64,000 nucleotides of DNA from a bacterium (GTDB lineage: Bacteria > Cyanobacteriota > Vampirovibrionia > Gastranaerophilales > Gastranaerophilaceae): NCBI GenBank assembly GCA_017403285.1, contig JAFQOI010000023.1, positions 1 through 64,000 of the forward strand, read 5' to 3'. The position numbers were made by a program, and so were the translations under genes. The notes under the pieces were generated by a model, which was not told where the DNA came from, did no database searches, and worked only from the letters and a program-made list of their open reading frames with translations. The first letter of the stretch is position 1. Every line of letters starts with the position of its first letter. Of the stretch, positions 29,162 to 37,305 are shown in pieces.

Positions 29162-30338
29162 AAATATTGCAATAGTTGGTGCTGGGGCATCAGGTGGTTT
29201 TGCTGCGATTTTGCTAGCTAAAAATCCATATAACAATATTGTGTTGTTTGATATTAAACAACCCTTCTCAACACTTCTTCCTACAGGTGGGGGTAGGTGT
29301 AATATTTCTTTTGACGAAAAAGATGTAAAAGAATTTGTTAAAAATTATCCAAGAGGTGAAAAGTTTTTGCTCTCAGTATTCTCACGATTTGGTGTCGATA
29401 AAACTCGTTCTTTATTTAAAGATTTAGGTGTTTCTACATATATACAAGATGATAAAAGAATTTTTCCAACATCTAATAGTTCTGTTGATGTGATAAGGCA
29501 ACTTACTTCTCATTTACGTGTCTCAAATGTATCTATAAAAAAAGAATTGGTAAAAGATATTAAAAAGAAACAAAATGGATTTGAAATAATAACAGAAAAA
29601 AAATCTTACTTCTTTGATTATGTTGTAATCGCAACTGGAGGGAGGGGAAATGGTTTTGATTTTGCTGAAAAGTTAGGACATAAAATAATTGAGAAAAAAC
29701 CATCTTTGAGCGCACTTGATATAAGTGAAAAATTTATCTATTCTCTTTCTGGTTTAACTTTTAAGTCGGTTAGGGCAAAAGCTGTATTTATGAAGAAAAA
29801 GTACAATGTAGAGGGTGATTTACTTTTTACTCATAAATCAATATCCGGACCATTAATTTTTAAAATTTCTGCATTATCTGCTTATGATGACTTTACAAAA
29901 GAAAATCCTTTAGAAATAGCTCTTTGTTTGACAGACTCCTCTATCGACTGTGTTGAAAATGCAATAAAAAATAATTCAAAGAAATCTATAAAAAATGTGT
30001 TTTCTATGTTCGCTCCAGAAAGTTATATTAATGCGGTCTTACAAGAATATAACATTGATGCAAATAAACAAATTGCTCAAATAAAGAAAAAAGAAAAAGA
30101 AGTCTTAATTGATGCTTTGTTTAATTTGAAAATACACGCAACTGGAAGAATAAAGGATTCTGAAATAGTAACTGCTGGCGGTGTTGATTTGAATGAAATA
30201 AATTCAAAAACAATGGAGTCAAAACTTGTAAATGGTCTGTATTTCATTGGTGAAGTTATGAATATAGATGCTTTTACTGGTGGGTTTAATCTTCAAAGTT
30301 GTTGGTCAACTGCGTTTATCTGTAGCATTAGTATTTAA
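29139..30338 (+). CDS. BaiN/YhiN-like FAD-dependent flavoprotein (HI0933 family)
   Basis: About 400 residues. An N-terminal Rossmann FAD site (IAIVGAGASGGFAAILLA) is followed by LPTGGGRCNISFD, the HI0933-family G-G-G-R-C-N motif. Other family segments are VVIATGG, TAGGVDLNEI and the C-terminal GLYFIGEVMNIDAFTGGFNLQ. Some members (BaiN) reduce bile-acid intermediates in gut bacteria, but most are uncharacterised. The window gives no bai cluster, so that role is not claimed. An in-frame ATG at 29124 is an alternative start; neither has a clear ribosome-binding site. The gene overlaps folK at its start and overlaps the convergent polymerase gene by 33 bases at its end. Confidence 0.85.
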   Translation: MEQESISKNIAIVGAGASGGFAAILLAKNPYNNIVLFDIKQPFSTLLPTGGGRCNISFDEKDVKEFVKNYPRGEKFLLSVFSRFGVDKTRSLFKDLGVSTYIQDDKRIFPTSNSSVDVIRQLTSHLRVSNVSIKKELVKDIKKKQNGFEIITEKKSYFFDYVVIATGGRGNGFDFAEKLGHKIIEKKPSLSALDISEKFIYSLSGLTFKSVRAKAVFMKKKYNVEGDLLFTHKSISGPLIFKISALSAYDDFTKENPLEIALCLTDSSIDCVENAIKNNSKKSIKNVFSMFAPESYINAVLQEYNIDANKQIAQIKKKEKEVLIDALFNLKIHATGRIKDSEIVTAGGVDLNEINSKTMESKLVNGLYFIGEVMNIDAFTGGFNLQSCWSTAFICSISI

Positions 30339-31538
30339 TGTACTTTTATATTTGTGTTTTTCCATAATGCTTTTTAATCCAGTCCTTCCAATTGATAGCG
30401 TGCCTTTTCCATATTTACTTTCAAGTTTATCTATGACTTCTGATATTTTTTTGTTTTTCTTGTCTTCGTTTCTTTCAAAAAGTGAAAGTTGTTGTTTTTG
30501 AATGTCTACAAGATTTGATGCCCATATACCTGCGGAGCGATATACTATTCCCTCTTTATAAATAATATTGAATAATTTGTTTACTATTTCGCTAAGAGTT
30601 AATTCGCTATTTGTTGGATTTAATACAGAATCTCCAAAATATACAATTTTAAAATCTTTTGTCCTCAGCATTACAGAAATAGCTCCGGTTTCCAAATTGT
30701 TTGAGCGGAGTTTTTTGCATAAATTATGTAAATGTAACATAATTTCAGTTTTTATATATTCTTTATTAGCTGAAAACTCGGGGAAAGCCCTTGTTCTTTG
30801 AATTGATTTGGGTTTTTGAATAATTCCGGTAATGGGAATTACGCTTTCTCCCATTAGTTCATATTTTAGTTCTAGTCCTTTTTTTCCTAATATAGTTCTA
30901 TAAAAATTGTCTTCTTTTTTTAATATGTCAATGCCATAAAAAATGCCGTAAGAACGTAATTTCCTAGCAATATTTTTACCCACGCCCCATATTTCTTCAA
31001 CTGGTAAGTTTTGCAATTCATTTGAAATCATGTTTTTTTCTATAATATATACACCAGCAGATTTTTTTGCTATATGATTCGCTGTTTTTGCTAGTATTGC
31101 TGTTGGTGCAAGTCCAATAGATACACTTAGTCCAATATTCTTTTCAATGTCTTGCTTTATTTCTTTTATTAGATTTTGATAAGATTTTTTGAAAATTTTA
31201 TCCATTCCTGTAATGTCTAAAAATGCTTCGTCTATGGAATAAATGTCAATTAAATCAGAATATTTTGACAAAAGTTGCATCATTCGTTGAGACATTTCGT
31301 GATACAAGGTAAAGTTTGAACTTTTATAAATAGCATTAGGAAATTCTTTTTTTGCCATGAAATATGGCATTCCCATTTTTATTCCAAGTCTTTTTGCTTC
31401 ATTTGATCTTGCAATAATGCAACCATCATTATTACTTAATATGCATAATGGTTTGTTTCTTAATGATGCGTCAAAGACCTGTTCACAAGAAGCAAAAAAG
31501 TTGTTTCCATCTACTAATATTATTTTCTTTTCGTTCAT
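30306..31538 (-). CDS. Y-family DNA polymerase (UmuC-like)
   Basis: 410 residues of translesion polymerase. The palm begins with ILVDGNNFFASCEQVFD (catalytic Asp). A steric-gate region and SIDEAFLDITGM (the S-[IM]-D-E-[AV] catalytic motif) follow. A helix-hairpin-helix region (LPVEEIWGVGKNIARKL) and a little-finger domain complete it. The tail QKQQLSLFER resembles a beta-clamp binding motif (Q-L-S-L-F). UmuC-like placement comes from length and from being downstream of a LexA/UmuD-type gene in the same direction. A terminator-like hairpin in the 80-base gap may limit read-through. AGGATTAAT is the ribosome-binding site. It overlaps the convergent flavoprotein gene by 33 bases. Confidence 0.92.
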   Translation of the reverse strand: MNEKKIILVDGNNFFASCEQVFDASLRNKPLCILSNNDGCIIARSNEAKRLGIKMGMPYFMAKKEFPNAIYKSSNFTLYHEMSQRMMQLLSKYSDLIDIYSIDEAFLDITGMDKIFKKSYQNLIKEIKQDIEKNIGLSVSIGLAPTAILAKTANHIAKKSAGVYIIEKNMISNELQNLPVEEIWGVGKNIARKLRSYGIFYGIDILKKEDNFYRTILGKKGLELKYELMGESVIPITGIIQKPKSIQRTRAFPEFSANKEYIKTEIMLHLHNLCKKLRSNNLETGAISVMLRTKDFKIVYFGDSVLNPTNSELTLSEIVNKLFNIIYKEGIVYRSAGIWASNLVDIQKQQLSLFERNEDKKNKKISEVIDKLESKYGKGTLSIGRTGLKSIMEKHKYKSTLNTNATDKRS

Positions 31539-31547
31539 ATTAATCCT

Positions 31548-31589
31548 AAAAAAAGACTAGCGGGGTCTTGGGAGGAAGAATAACCCCGC
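31548..31589 (-). terminator. Terminator/attenuator between the lexA-like gene and umuC
   Basis: On the minus strand GCGGGGT pairs with ACCCCGC across a 16-base loop. A short TAGTC spacer and seven T residues follow, running straight into the AGGATTAAT ribosome-binding site of the polymerase gene. It may act as a partial terminator or attenuator. Confidence 0.62.
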
Positions 31590-31618
31590 AAGGAAAAATT
31601 ATAAAATTTGTTGGAAGA

Positions 31619-32194
31619 TTAAAATTTTCTTACAATTCCCTGTGCAACACCGAAAATAATTAGTTGTTCTTTGGGATACAAGTTTGGATAGTTTGGATTT
31701 GCTGGCTCTAACCATATTTTTGAATTTTTATCTCTATAAGTTTTAATAGTATAGCCTCCGTCTATATAAGCAACAACAATATCACCATTTTTTGCAGTAT
31801 TTGTTTTCTTTACTATTACTTTATCACCTTCAAATATGCCAAGATCTATCATTGAATCACCAGAAACAGTGAATAAAAATGTTGATGCTCCATTGATATC
31901 AAAACTCTCATCTAATGAAATTCTTTTTTCAATGTAATCATCTGCTACAGAAGCAAAACCTGCTTTTACGGATGAAGAAAATAATACTGCACCAAACAAA
32001 TCTTTGTTGATATAAAATCTATTATTTTTTTCTTGTATAAGATTTTCTTCTTTTAGTTTATTGAAATACTGCCATACTGAATTTTTATGTTTGAAACCAA
32101 AGTCTTTTGCAATTATATCAAAGCTCGGAAGAATTTCTTTTCCATATAATTCTTTTAGTTTTTCAAAGAATATTTTTTGTTTCTCTGTAAGCAT
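31619..32194 (-). CDS. LexA/UmuD-family self-cleaving transcriptional repressor
   Basis: 191 residues. Residues 1-65 form a winged-helix-like DNA-binding region (SFDIIAKDFGFKHKNSVWQYFNKLKE). Residues about 70-191 form the S24 peptidase domain, with cleavage site Ala78-Gly79 in VKAGFAS, nucleophile Ser114 in SGDSM and base Lys151 in GYTIKTYR. In LexA proteins RecA filaments trigger this self-cleavage and switch on the DNA-damage response. The gene lies upstream of a Y-family polymerase, giving a UmuDC-like layout. The promoter is near-consensus, is overlapped by a perfect palindrome, and leaves no room for a leader, so the mRNA is probably leaderless. It could be a lexA paralogue rather than the global LexA; no other gene with this operator was searched. 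Confidence 0.86.
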   Translation of the reverse strand: MLTEKQKIFFEKLKELYGKEILPSFDIIAKDFGFKHKNSVWQYFNKLKEENLIQEKNNRFYINKDLFGAVLFSSSVKAGFASVADDYIEKRISLDESFDINGASTFLFTVSGDSMIDLGIFEGDKVIVKKTNTAKNGDIVVAYIDGGYTIKTYRDKNSKIWLEPANPNYPNLYPKEQLIIFGVAQGIVRKF

Positions 32195-34879: not shown

Positions 34880-35623
34880 TCAATTCTTCAATTCGTCGAT
34901 TTGGTTTTGTTCTTCTATTTTTAAGTTTTTTGAAAAAAATAATCCAAGTTCAAATAATAAATATGTGGGAGTAAAAAGCATTGTTTGGCTGATAATATCA
35001 GGTGGCGTTATAATTGCGGCTATAATCAGCAAACCTATAACAACATAAGGTCTTTTGGATTGTACGGATTCGTATGAAATTATTCCCCATTTTATCAAAA
35101 AATACACAATTAATGGCACTTGAAACATCAAACCGAAAGTAAAACTTAACCACAGTGCAAGTGAAACTACGTTTGATATACCAAAAACTGCTTGAATGTT
35201 GTTGCTGGCAAAACTCATACCAAAATTTATAAGCAAAGGAAGAATGGTAAACATGCAAAAAATAACACCCAAAGTAAATAGTATGCTTGATGTTATAACC
35301 ATTGATTTTATTATTGTCTTTTCTTTTTCATATAGTGCTGGCAAAATGAAATTCCATAGTTGTTTTGAAATATACGGAAAACAGATTATTACATCTATTA
35401 AAAAAGCAAGTTTTATTTGTAGGATAAAAACTTCCATAGGTGTAAAATAATTTAAGGTTATATTATTATTGCCTACAAGAATTTTAATTATAAAAGATAA
35501 TGCTTTTGGGGATATTAAAAATGCAAATGGCAAAACAATTCCGACAGCACAAAAGCACTTTATTAAAGTGCTTCGTAATTCTTCAAGATGAGTTATTATA
35601 CTTTCATCTTTAGCATCAGGCAT
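34880..35623 (-). CDS. tatC: Sec-independent protein translocase TatC
   Basis: 247 residues with six transmembrane helices. The conserved N-terminal HLEELRSTL cytoplasmic motif binds twin-arginine signals. LWNFILPALYEKEK and the later FGLMFQVPLIVYFL helix match the family, and the PDIISQTMLFTPTYLLFE segment forms the last helices. It starts two bases after tatA, so tatA and tatC are one transcript with the polyferredoxin gene upstream. It translocates folded proteins across the inner membrane. Confidence 0.96.
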   Translation of the reverse strand: MPDAKDESIITHLEELRSTLIKCFCAVGIVLPFAFLISPKALSFIIKILVGNNNITLNYFTPMEVFILQIKLAFLIDVIICFPYISKQLWNFILPALYEKEKTIIKSMVITSSILFTLGVIFCMFTILPLLINFGMSFASNNIQAVFGISNVVSLALWLSFTFGLMFQVPLIVYFLIKWGIISYESVQSKRPYVVIGLLIIAAIITPPDIISQTMLFTPTYLLFELGLFFSKNLKIEEQNQIDELKN

Positions 35624-35625
35624 TT

Positions 35626-35823
35626 TTATACTTCCTGATTTTCTTCTTCATTTTTTATTGCGTCAGTTAATTCTTCTGCTTCTTTTTGAATTGTTTGTTT
35701 TGCTTTTTTAAATTCATAAGAAGCGCGACCAAATGCTCTCGCAATTTCTGGTATTCTTTTTGCGCCAAATAATAGTAAAGCAACGGCTAAAATTAATATT
35801 ATTTCTTGGATTCCGATTGACAT
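35626..35823 (-). CDS. tatA: Sec-independent protein translocase TatA
   Basis: 65 residues. One short N-terminal transmembrane helix (IGIQEIILILAVALLLFGAKRIPEIA) includes the FG-x-K-[RK]-[IL]-P-E hinge, followed by an amphipathic helix (AFGRASYEFKKAKQ) and an acidic tail. This is the pore-forming TatA/E type. No separate TatB is next to it, so this may be a minimal TatAC system as in many Gram-positive bacteria and some others. It lies between the polyferredoxin gene and tatC. Confidence 0.95.
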   Translation of the reverse strand: MSIGIQEIILILAVALLLFGAKRIPEIARAFGRASYEFKKAKQTIQKEAEELTDAIKNEEENQEV

Positions 35824-35844: not shown

Positions 35845-37122
35845 TTATATAACAGATTGCTCGTTTACTGCAAAGATTTCAATAGCATCGTGGAAACAGT
35901 TTATTTTGCATATTCCGCAACCAATACATTTTGAATCGTCTATTCTTGCAATATTCTCTTCAAAACTAATGGCATCTGTAGGGCACTTACCTTCACAATC
36001 TTTACATCCAGTACATTCATTATTTATAGTGGCAATTGCAATTTTTGTTTTTTGTTTCTCTTCTAAAGATATTTTCTTGATTGCACCAGAAGGACATACT
36101 TCTGAACATCTGTTGCAATTGTATTTACAGTATTGAAATCCCTCTTCAAAATTAATATGAATGGCATTAAATTCTTTAGTCGCTTTTGTTAATATTTTTG
36201 TTGGACAATTGTTTATACAAAGATTGCAATTTAAACACGTATCTTGCATTCTTTGTGCATTTTTGCTTCCTGCTGGAAGAATAATACCTTGTATTTTTTT
36301 TGAAACTTTTTTTGCAAAGTTAATGCCTAATGCATATCCAGCGCCTATTGCTGATAAAAAGGCAATGCTTCCTATTATATTTCGTCTTTTTAAACTGAAT
36401 TTAATTTCTTTTTTGTGTTCAGTACCATATTCTATAGCGTTTTTAGGACAAGTATTTATGCATTTTAGACATTTTAAACACATTTCATTGTCAATTTTGC
36501 TTTCGCTTGAGTTAATGCAACCAGCAGGACAATCTCTTTCGCAAGAACCACAAGCAATACAGTTGTCATTAACATAGAGTTTATTCAGCGAATTTTTTGA
36601 AATTAAGCCTAAAATAGTTCCAACTGGGCATATGTTTGTACAAAAAAACCTGTTTTTTAAAAAAACAATTGCAGCGATTAAAATGATTGCTATAATTCCT
36701 GTTTTTTTTAAACTTAGCGCTGAACAAAATAATGTTAATGGGTCGATATATTTTAGAGTTAAAGTGCTTCCTGAGATTAAAGAACCAATAACTAGTCCTA
36801 AAATAATGTATTTGAAAATATAGTTGTCCGTTGGTTCATTATTTTTTTTGTGTGCAATAAAAGAAATGAGTTCTTGAAATATCCCTAATGGGCATAAAGT
36901 TGAGCAAAAAAATCTTCCAAATAATAATGTTAAAATGATTAATCCGACTAATAAAATTATTGCAAATATCGAGAAATCAACAAATATTCTTTGTAAAAGC
37001 ACAATAATTTCAATGTTTAAAAATTTTATTGGATAAAAAATGCCTGCAAAAGCAGTTATTGACAATGATAAAATAATAATTGCGACTAATAATCTTATGG
37101 CGTAAAGATTTTTATTCTCCAT
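35845..37122 (-). CDS. NapH-NapG-like polyferredoxin membrane fusion with an internal Tat-type helix
   Basis: 425 residues. The N-terminal half resembles NapH: several transmembrane helices with two FC-x-x-x-CP motifs (FCSTLCPLG, FCTNICPVG), then two 4Fe-4S clusters (CIACGSCERDCP, CLKCLKCINTCP). Next is a twin-arginine motif, Arg246-Arg247 in LKRRNIIGSIAFLSA, at the head of a hydrophobic helix. Four more ferredoxin motifs follow: CLNCNLCINNCP, CKYNCNRCSEVCP, CTGCKDCEGKCP, CIGCGICKINCF. NapG itself is a Tat-exported four-cluster ferredoxin, so this looks like NapH and NapG joined into one chain. It would pass electrons from the membrane pool to a periplasmic partner, which is not encoded here. 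tatA and tatC follow 21 bases downstream. Confidence 0.88.
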   Translation of the reverse strand: MENKNLYAIRLLVAIIILSLSITAFAGIFYPIKFLNIEIIVLLQRIFVDFSIFAIILLVGLIILTLLFGRFFCSTLCPLGIFQELISFIAHKKNNEPTDNYIFKYIILGLVIGSLISGSTLTLKYIDPLTLFCSALSLKKTGIIAIILIAAIVFLKNRFFCTNICPVGTILGLISKNSLNKLYVNDNCIACGSCERDCPAGCINSSESKIDNEMCLKCLKCINTCPKNAIEYGTEHKKEIKFSLKRRNIIGSIAFLSAIGAGYALGINFAKKVSKKIQGIILPAGSKNAQRMQDTCLNCNLCINNCPTKILTKATKEFNAIHINFEEGFQYCKYNCNRCSEVCPSGAIKKISLEEKQKTKIAIATINNECTGCKDCEGKCPTDAISFEENIARIDDSKCIGCGICKINCFHDAIEIFAVNEQSVI

Positions 37123-37305
37123 TAATTATGCTTCTTTCATATTTTGCTAATATAGATAATATCATTAAATGTAATTTACGGATATTATTAAGTTCAAGAT
37201 TTTATAAGGGAAATTCAGATGAAACTTTTTTGAATTAAATAAGTCATGTATCTGTAAGCAAATGTGAAAATTTATACTATAATAAGGAAGTATAAGGAGA
37301 GAGTT

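Follow-up and report, generated by a model that had tools for sequence, protein, structure and literature searches.

A fused polyferredoxin gene next to tatA and tatC

The window, by which we mean the whole 64,000-nucleotide stretch of DNA from a gut Gastranaerophilales bacterium analysed here, carries on its minus strand a gene (35845..37122, ATG start) for a 425-residue, fused NapH-like/NapG-like polytopic polyferredoxin (PFD). On the same strand, tatA (35626..35823, 65 aa) follows about 21 bases later, and tatC (34880..35623, 247 aa) about 2 bases after that. Both tat genes, named as the next genes in the original prediction, are confirmed above the model cut-offs: tatA by PF02416 (65.9 versus 21 bits) and TIGR01411 (59.2 versus 53.9), tatC by PF00902 (189.6 versus 25.1 bits) and TIGR00945 (168.7 versus 132.7). 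Elsewhere in the window (30306-32194, minus strand), a putative UmuC-like polymerase gene adjoins a LexA/UmuD-like gene.

The NapH-like half of PFD (residues 1-238; 36409..37122; all PFD features are on the minus strand) has four predicted transmembrane (TM) helices and two Cx3CP motifs, one at residues 73-78 (36889..36906) within FCSTLCP (72-78) and one at residues 161-166 (36625..36642) within FCTNICP (160-166). A pair of ferredoxin cluster motifs, predicted to be cytoplasmic, follows at residues 188-225 (36448..36561), with CxxCxxCxxxC at 188-198 and 215-225. The twin arginines R246-R247 (36382..36387; TCGTCT on the plus strand) stand directly before TM5 (residues 249-267; 36322..36378), a weakly hydrophobic segment with four lysines within the 15 residues after it. 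The NapG-like domain, predicted to be periplasmic (residues 291-425; 35848..36252), contains four 4Fe-4S motifs, at 296-306, 332-343 (CxxxCxxCxxxCP), 370-380 and 399-409. Pfam matches comprise Fer4_5 and many Fer4 families, and the 28 motif cysteines would give seven 4Fe-4S clusters if both Cx3CP motifs share one. All motifs listed in the original prediction are present, and the Tat-type helix that it placed inside the protein corresponds to the arginine pair and the segment 249-267.

R246 and R247 are present in every one of 63 aligned homologues (58 distinct), and the motif cysteines are likewise invariant except C373 (54/63), which argues that the motif set did not arise by chance; relatives without the arginine pair, which had been named as evidence against a Tat-type signal, did not occur among them. 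The 18 residues past TM5 hold a mean of 3.7 K/R in these 63 proteins. On a simplified Hessa per-residue scale (instead of the dGpred server), TM1 of the window protein scores -2.88 and TM5 +1.34. The AlphaFold model of PFD is weak (pLDDT 67.9, pTM 0.44); compared with the PDB it gave local ferredoxin-like matches and no full-length match, and a sequence search of the PDB returned, among the matches listed, only ferredoxin-type proteins. Named contigs that hold PFD homologues belong mostly to Candidatus Gastranaerophilales. Two homologues (L037:1569-2870 and L038:4890-6200) lie on short rumen contigs labelled Alphaproteobacteria, with no adjoining reductase or tat genes, and raise a question of horizontal transfer or binning.

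NapH and NapG make up the quinol dehydrogenase of periplasmic nitrate reduction. Each half of PFD matches the corresponding model, and to this extent the proposed NapH-NapG fusion holds; PFD differs in being a single polypeptide and in scoring far below the curated cut-offs. The NapH models NF007013 and TIGR02163 gave 87.4 of 234 and 84.7 of 213 bits for the whole protein, and 81.2 and 77.1 bits for its N-terminal half, while the NapG models TIGR00397 and NF007012 gave 44.0 of 178.85 and 42.2 of 269 bits for the C-terminal half, all below cut-off. Hence PFD is homologous to NapH and NapG and is no member of either family by those models. Nitrate reductase is reported absent from this order in published reconstructions.

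Polytopic polyferredoxins with a conserved RR pair before TMD5 were described by Tooke et al. 2017 (PMC5449189), who termed the PFD of the delta proteobacterium MLMS-1 NapH fused with NapG. There, insertion and translocation of PFD TMD5 required Tat and the RR pair, as judged with MBP and AmiA reporters; release by Sec was credited to the weak hydrophobicity of TMD5 and to C-terminal positive charges, and the family was assigned three 4Fe-4S clusters in the cytoplasm and four outside it, seven in all. The fusion and the internal Tat helix, the main novelty of the original prediction, are therefore already published. The TM1 and TM5 scores of the window protein have the same signs as those of the PFD proteins in Table 5 of that work. 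Like MLMS-1 Q1NSB0, as published, the window protein combines a NapH-like four-TM half, RR before TMD5, a weakly hydrophobic TMD5 followed by positive charges, and four clusters in the C-terminal half; unlike it, it is shorter, with TMD5 at about 249-267 versus 338-359. A further difference lies in the neighbours of the window-type PFD, which are tatA-tatC and, in relatives, also a gene for a Tat-signal aldo/keto reductase; the passages of Tooke 2017 consulted mention neither. Judged by its sequence features, the product of ORF 35845-37122 is of the PFD family, here in Gastranaerophilales, and would be expected to depend on Tat.

A Tat-signal aldo/keto reductase is encoded upstream of PFD in relatives

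An aldo/keto reductase (AKR; PF00248) gene lies directly upstream of PFD in 59 of the 61 loci of the order that have sufficient sequence to either side, and tatA-tatC lies downstream in 56 of the 61; these counts include near-duplicates (e.g. L004 and L043) and related species, so that the loci are not independent. PFD-tatAC occurs with AKR absent upstream at L005 and L006, and adjacent tat genes are missing at L028, L032, L036, L069 and L071. At L036:5821-6981 the C-terminal cluster motif of AKR is continuous in frame with PFD (CTACKYCMEVCPFGIFQELV), through either a deletion fusion or an assembly join.

The AKR N-terminus, of the form MKRREFIINSALAxGGTALLSGCG, is a Tat-type signal in which KRR at residues 2-4 is invariant; a lipobox was found by pattern in 41 of 47 sequences. 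Eight invariant cysteines at the C-terminus putatively bind Fe-S. Residues D84, Y89, K115 and H149 are invariant as well and would presumably correspond to the catalytic tetrad of the family. Among Bacteroidota, Bacteroides finegoldii and Parabacteroides distasonis (L206, L207) have AKR-PFD pairs too, with an RR motif in both proteins. These pairs resemble the loci described above in having RR before TM5 of PFD and an adjoining AKR with N-terminal RR, and differ from them in the lack of adjacent tat genes, an extra TM3-TM4 segment and a longer linker before RR. Another Parabacteroides PFD gene has a Tat-signal DUF362 gene as its neighbour, and PFD partners may therefore vary. Overall, AKR is likely the periplasmic partner of PFD in relatives, a function suggested by its fold and gene neighbourhood. 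The periplasmic reductase that the original prediction proposed is thus plausible in relatives, but its gene is missing from the window genome. We found no description of an AKR-polyferredoxin system in the open-access literature searched.

PFD and TatC co-occur within the genus

We compared 41 genomes of the same genus, of which 34 have PFD and 35 have TatC. The two co-occur strongly, as the original prediction had suggested checking: 34 genomes have both, six neither (G002, G004, G008, G018, G021 and G032; completeness 82% for G002 and 70% for G032), one TatC only and none PFD only (Fisher P-value 1.6e-6, kinship and incomplete assemblies ignored). The genome with TatC only, G024, carries tatA-tatC without PFD or AKR on contig C15 (L174) and has no Tat-signal match by TIGR01409 or PF10518. 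Beyond the genus, PFD and TatC occur together in G040, G044 and G045, and G037, G039, G043 and G057 have TatC with full-length PFD absent.

Other Tat substrates were sought with TIGR01409 and PF10518 only, weak models by which signals can be missed. With TIGR01409, no Tat signal turned up in the window genome; 12 other genomes of the genus had matches above cut-off, several of them to an FMN-reductase family protein (PF03358). PF10518 gave one match in the window genome, a lipoprotein-like protein below the cut-off (20.0 versus 22.7 bits). This Tat-lipoprotein-like protein, encoded on contig C110 (L131:1501-2679), has 393 aa, a weak relation to peptidase U32 and a C-terminal cysteine cluster; G009 has 19 matches to proteins related to this U32-like lipoprotein, many without the N-terminal part. 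In several relatives (L105:952-2150, L103, L108), a membrane-anchored or exported Flavodoxin_4 protein and a Tat-signal FMN-reductase family protein share one operon. The idea that PFD is the only Tat substrate was rejected in view of the other candidate Tat-signal proteins in relatives and in the window genome. As for the "dedicated" Tat system originally proposed, the co-occurrence of PFD and TatC speaks for it, whereas TatC without PFD in G024, the Tat-signal proteins of relatives and the Tat-type lipoprotein candidate of the window genome speak against it; Tat use appears narrow rather than exclusive.

No AKR gene found in the window genome

In the nearest relatives (L004, G014) the AKR gene occupies the position of the window's PFD-ctpA gap (37123..37263), where we found no AKR remnant. 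The window has the gene order of L004 (CoADR, ctpA, AKR, PFD, tatA, tatC, and later thioesterase and acyl-CoA ligase) minus AKR. No AKR match at E 1e-10 was found elsewhere in the window genome, a 2.23 Mb assembly of 162 contigs that is 96.67% complete and in which a copy elsewhere could be missed. With AKR-PFD as the usual arrangement, it is simpler to suppose that the window lineage lost AKR, and given its absence both from the site and from the genome search, the window PFD is probably orphaned or feeding another acceptor.

Discussion

We suggest, with a probability of about 0.72, that the window protein is a PFD-type polyferredoxin inserted by Sec and Tat that passes electrons to a Tat-exported Fe-S enzyme, which would be AKR in relatives and would have been lost in the window lineage. 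Sec would insert TM1-4, with the result that the Cx3CP motifs and the pair of ferredoxin clusters stay on the cytoplasmic side. Weak hydrophobicity of TM5 and the lysines after it would make Sec let TM5 go, whereupon Tat would carry it, together with the folded domain of four clusters, into the periplasm. PFD probably carries electrons across the membrane, to judge from its predicted architecture, and they would flow through its clusters, from a donor that is either cytoplasmic or a quinol, to the exported periplasmic Fe-S enzyme. In relatives the acceptor would most likely be the lipoprotein AKR, whose gene immediately precedes PFD, and the translocase genes come immediately after PFD. In the window lineage, where the AKR gene would have been lost and PFD, tatA and tatC are intact, PFD may serve another acceptor or slowly lose its function. 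Possible donors are quinol and a cytoplasmic ferredoxin. The lineage has been described as fermentative and devoid of respiratory chains (Di Rienzi et al., PMC3787301; Soo et al., PMC4040986), which makes a quinol donor uncertain; vitamin K synthesis was suggested for one gut genome (Di Rienzi et al., PMC3787301). With the UbiA family as a proxy for quinones, we found one such gene in the window genome, whose best matches are MenA-type models, far below cut-off.

It is very improbable that TM5 is inserted by Sec, with the C-terminal clusters cytoplasmic or exported without Tat. The weak structure model and the purely predicted topology of the window protein leave room for this arrangement, but the invariant RR, the low hydrophobicity, the lysines after TM5, the adjacency to and joint loss with tatAC, and the Tat-dependent reporter data for a PFD family member (PMC5449189) all argue against it. 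We also consider it rather unlikely that the window PFD passes electrons to some other exported acceptor, for instance the U32-related lipoprotein of Tat type or a protein resembling flavodoxin. The 393-aa protein of the window genome, which starts with MDRRELLKSGLLVAGAAAVGLTGCS, ends in a cysteine cluster and also occurs in G014, would be a candidate, and the Parabacteroides PFD beside the Tat-signal DUF362 gene and the PFD-tatAC loci without upstream AKR (L005, L006) point the same way; however, its Tat-signal match falls short of the Pfam cut-off, its gene is unlinked to PFD, and G014 has both the U32-related protein and AKR.

Alternatively, PFD-tatA-tatC in the window could be a decaying remnant, expressed after AKR loss with no useful acceptor, which we regard as unlikely. 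Besides the missing AKR, the branch of the window PFD is long (0.68 versus 0.33 for its sister), and its relative-rate excess stands out most in the periplasmic domain (e.g. 16/3, 15/3 and 17/5 changes with different outgroups). This excess is modest, though, and falls short of significance with some of the outgroups, which are not independent; tatC and CoADR also show some excess with some outgroups. Moreover, PFD has an uninterrupted reading frame with RR and every one of its 28 motif cysteines, and tatA and tatC are intact as well.

Three observations add to published work on PFD: its co-occurrence with TatC, the upstream AKR, and the lack of AKR in the window genome. For the PFD family the export route is proven, and Tooke 2017 (PMC5449189) proposes no enzyme partner; the order AKR-PFD-tatA-tatC and the Bacteroidota pairs name a testable one. 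The shared absence of PFD and TatC in one genus suggests a translocase kept for very few substrates, which would stand in a lineage published as being without electron transport chains. We tentatively propose that Gastranaerophilales may keep Tat mainly for one extracytoplasmic chain, from the polyferredoxin to an Fe-S AKR without a soluble nicotinamide donor, and that the window lineage lost the enzyme and kept the conduit and the translocase. With its enzyme gone, the window species would offer a natural test of the conduit acting alone.
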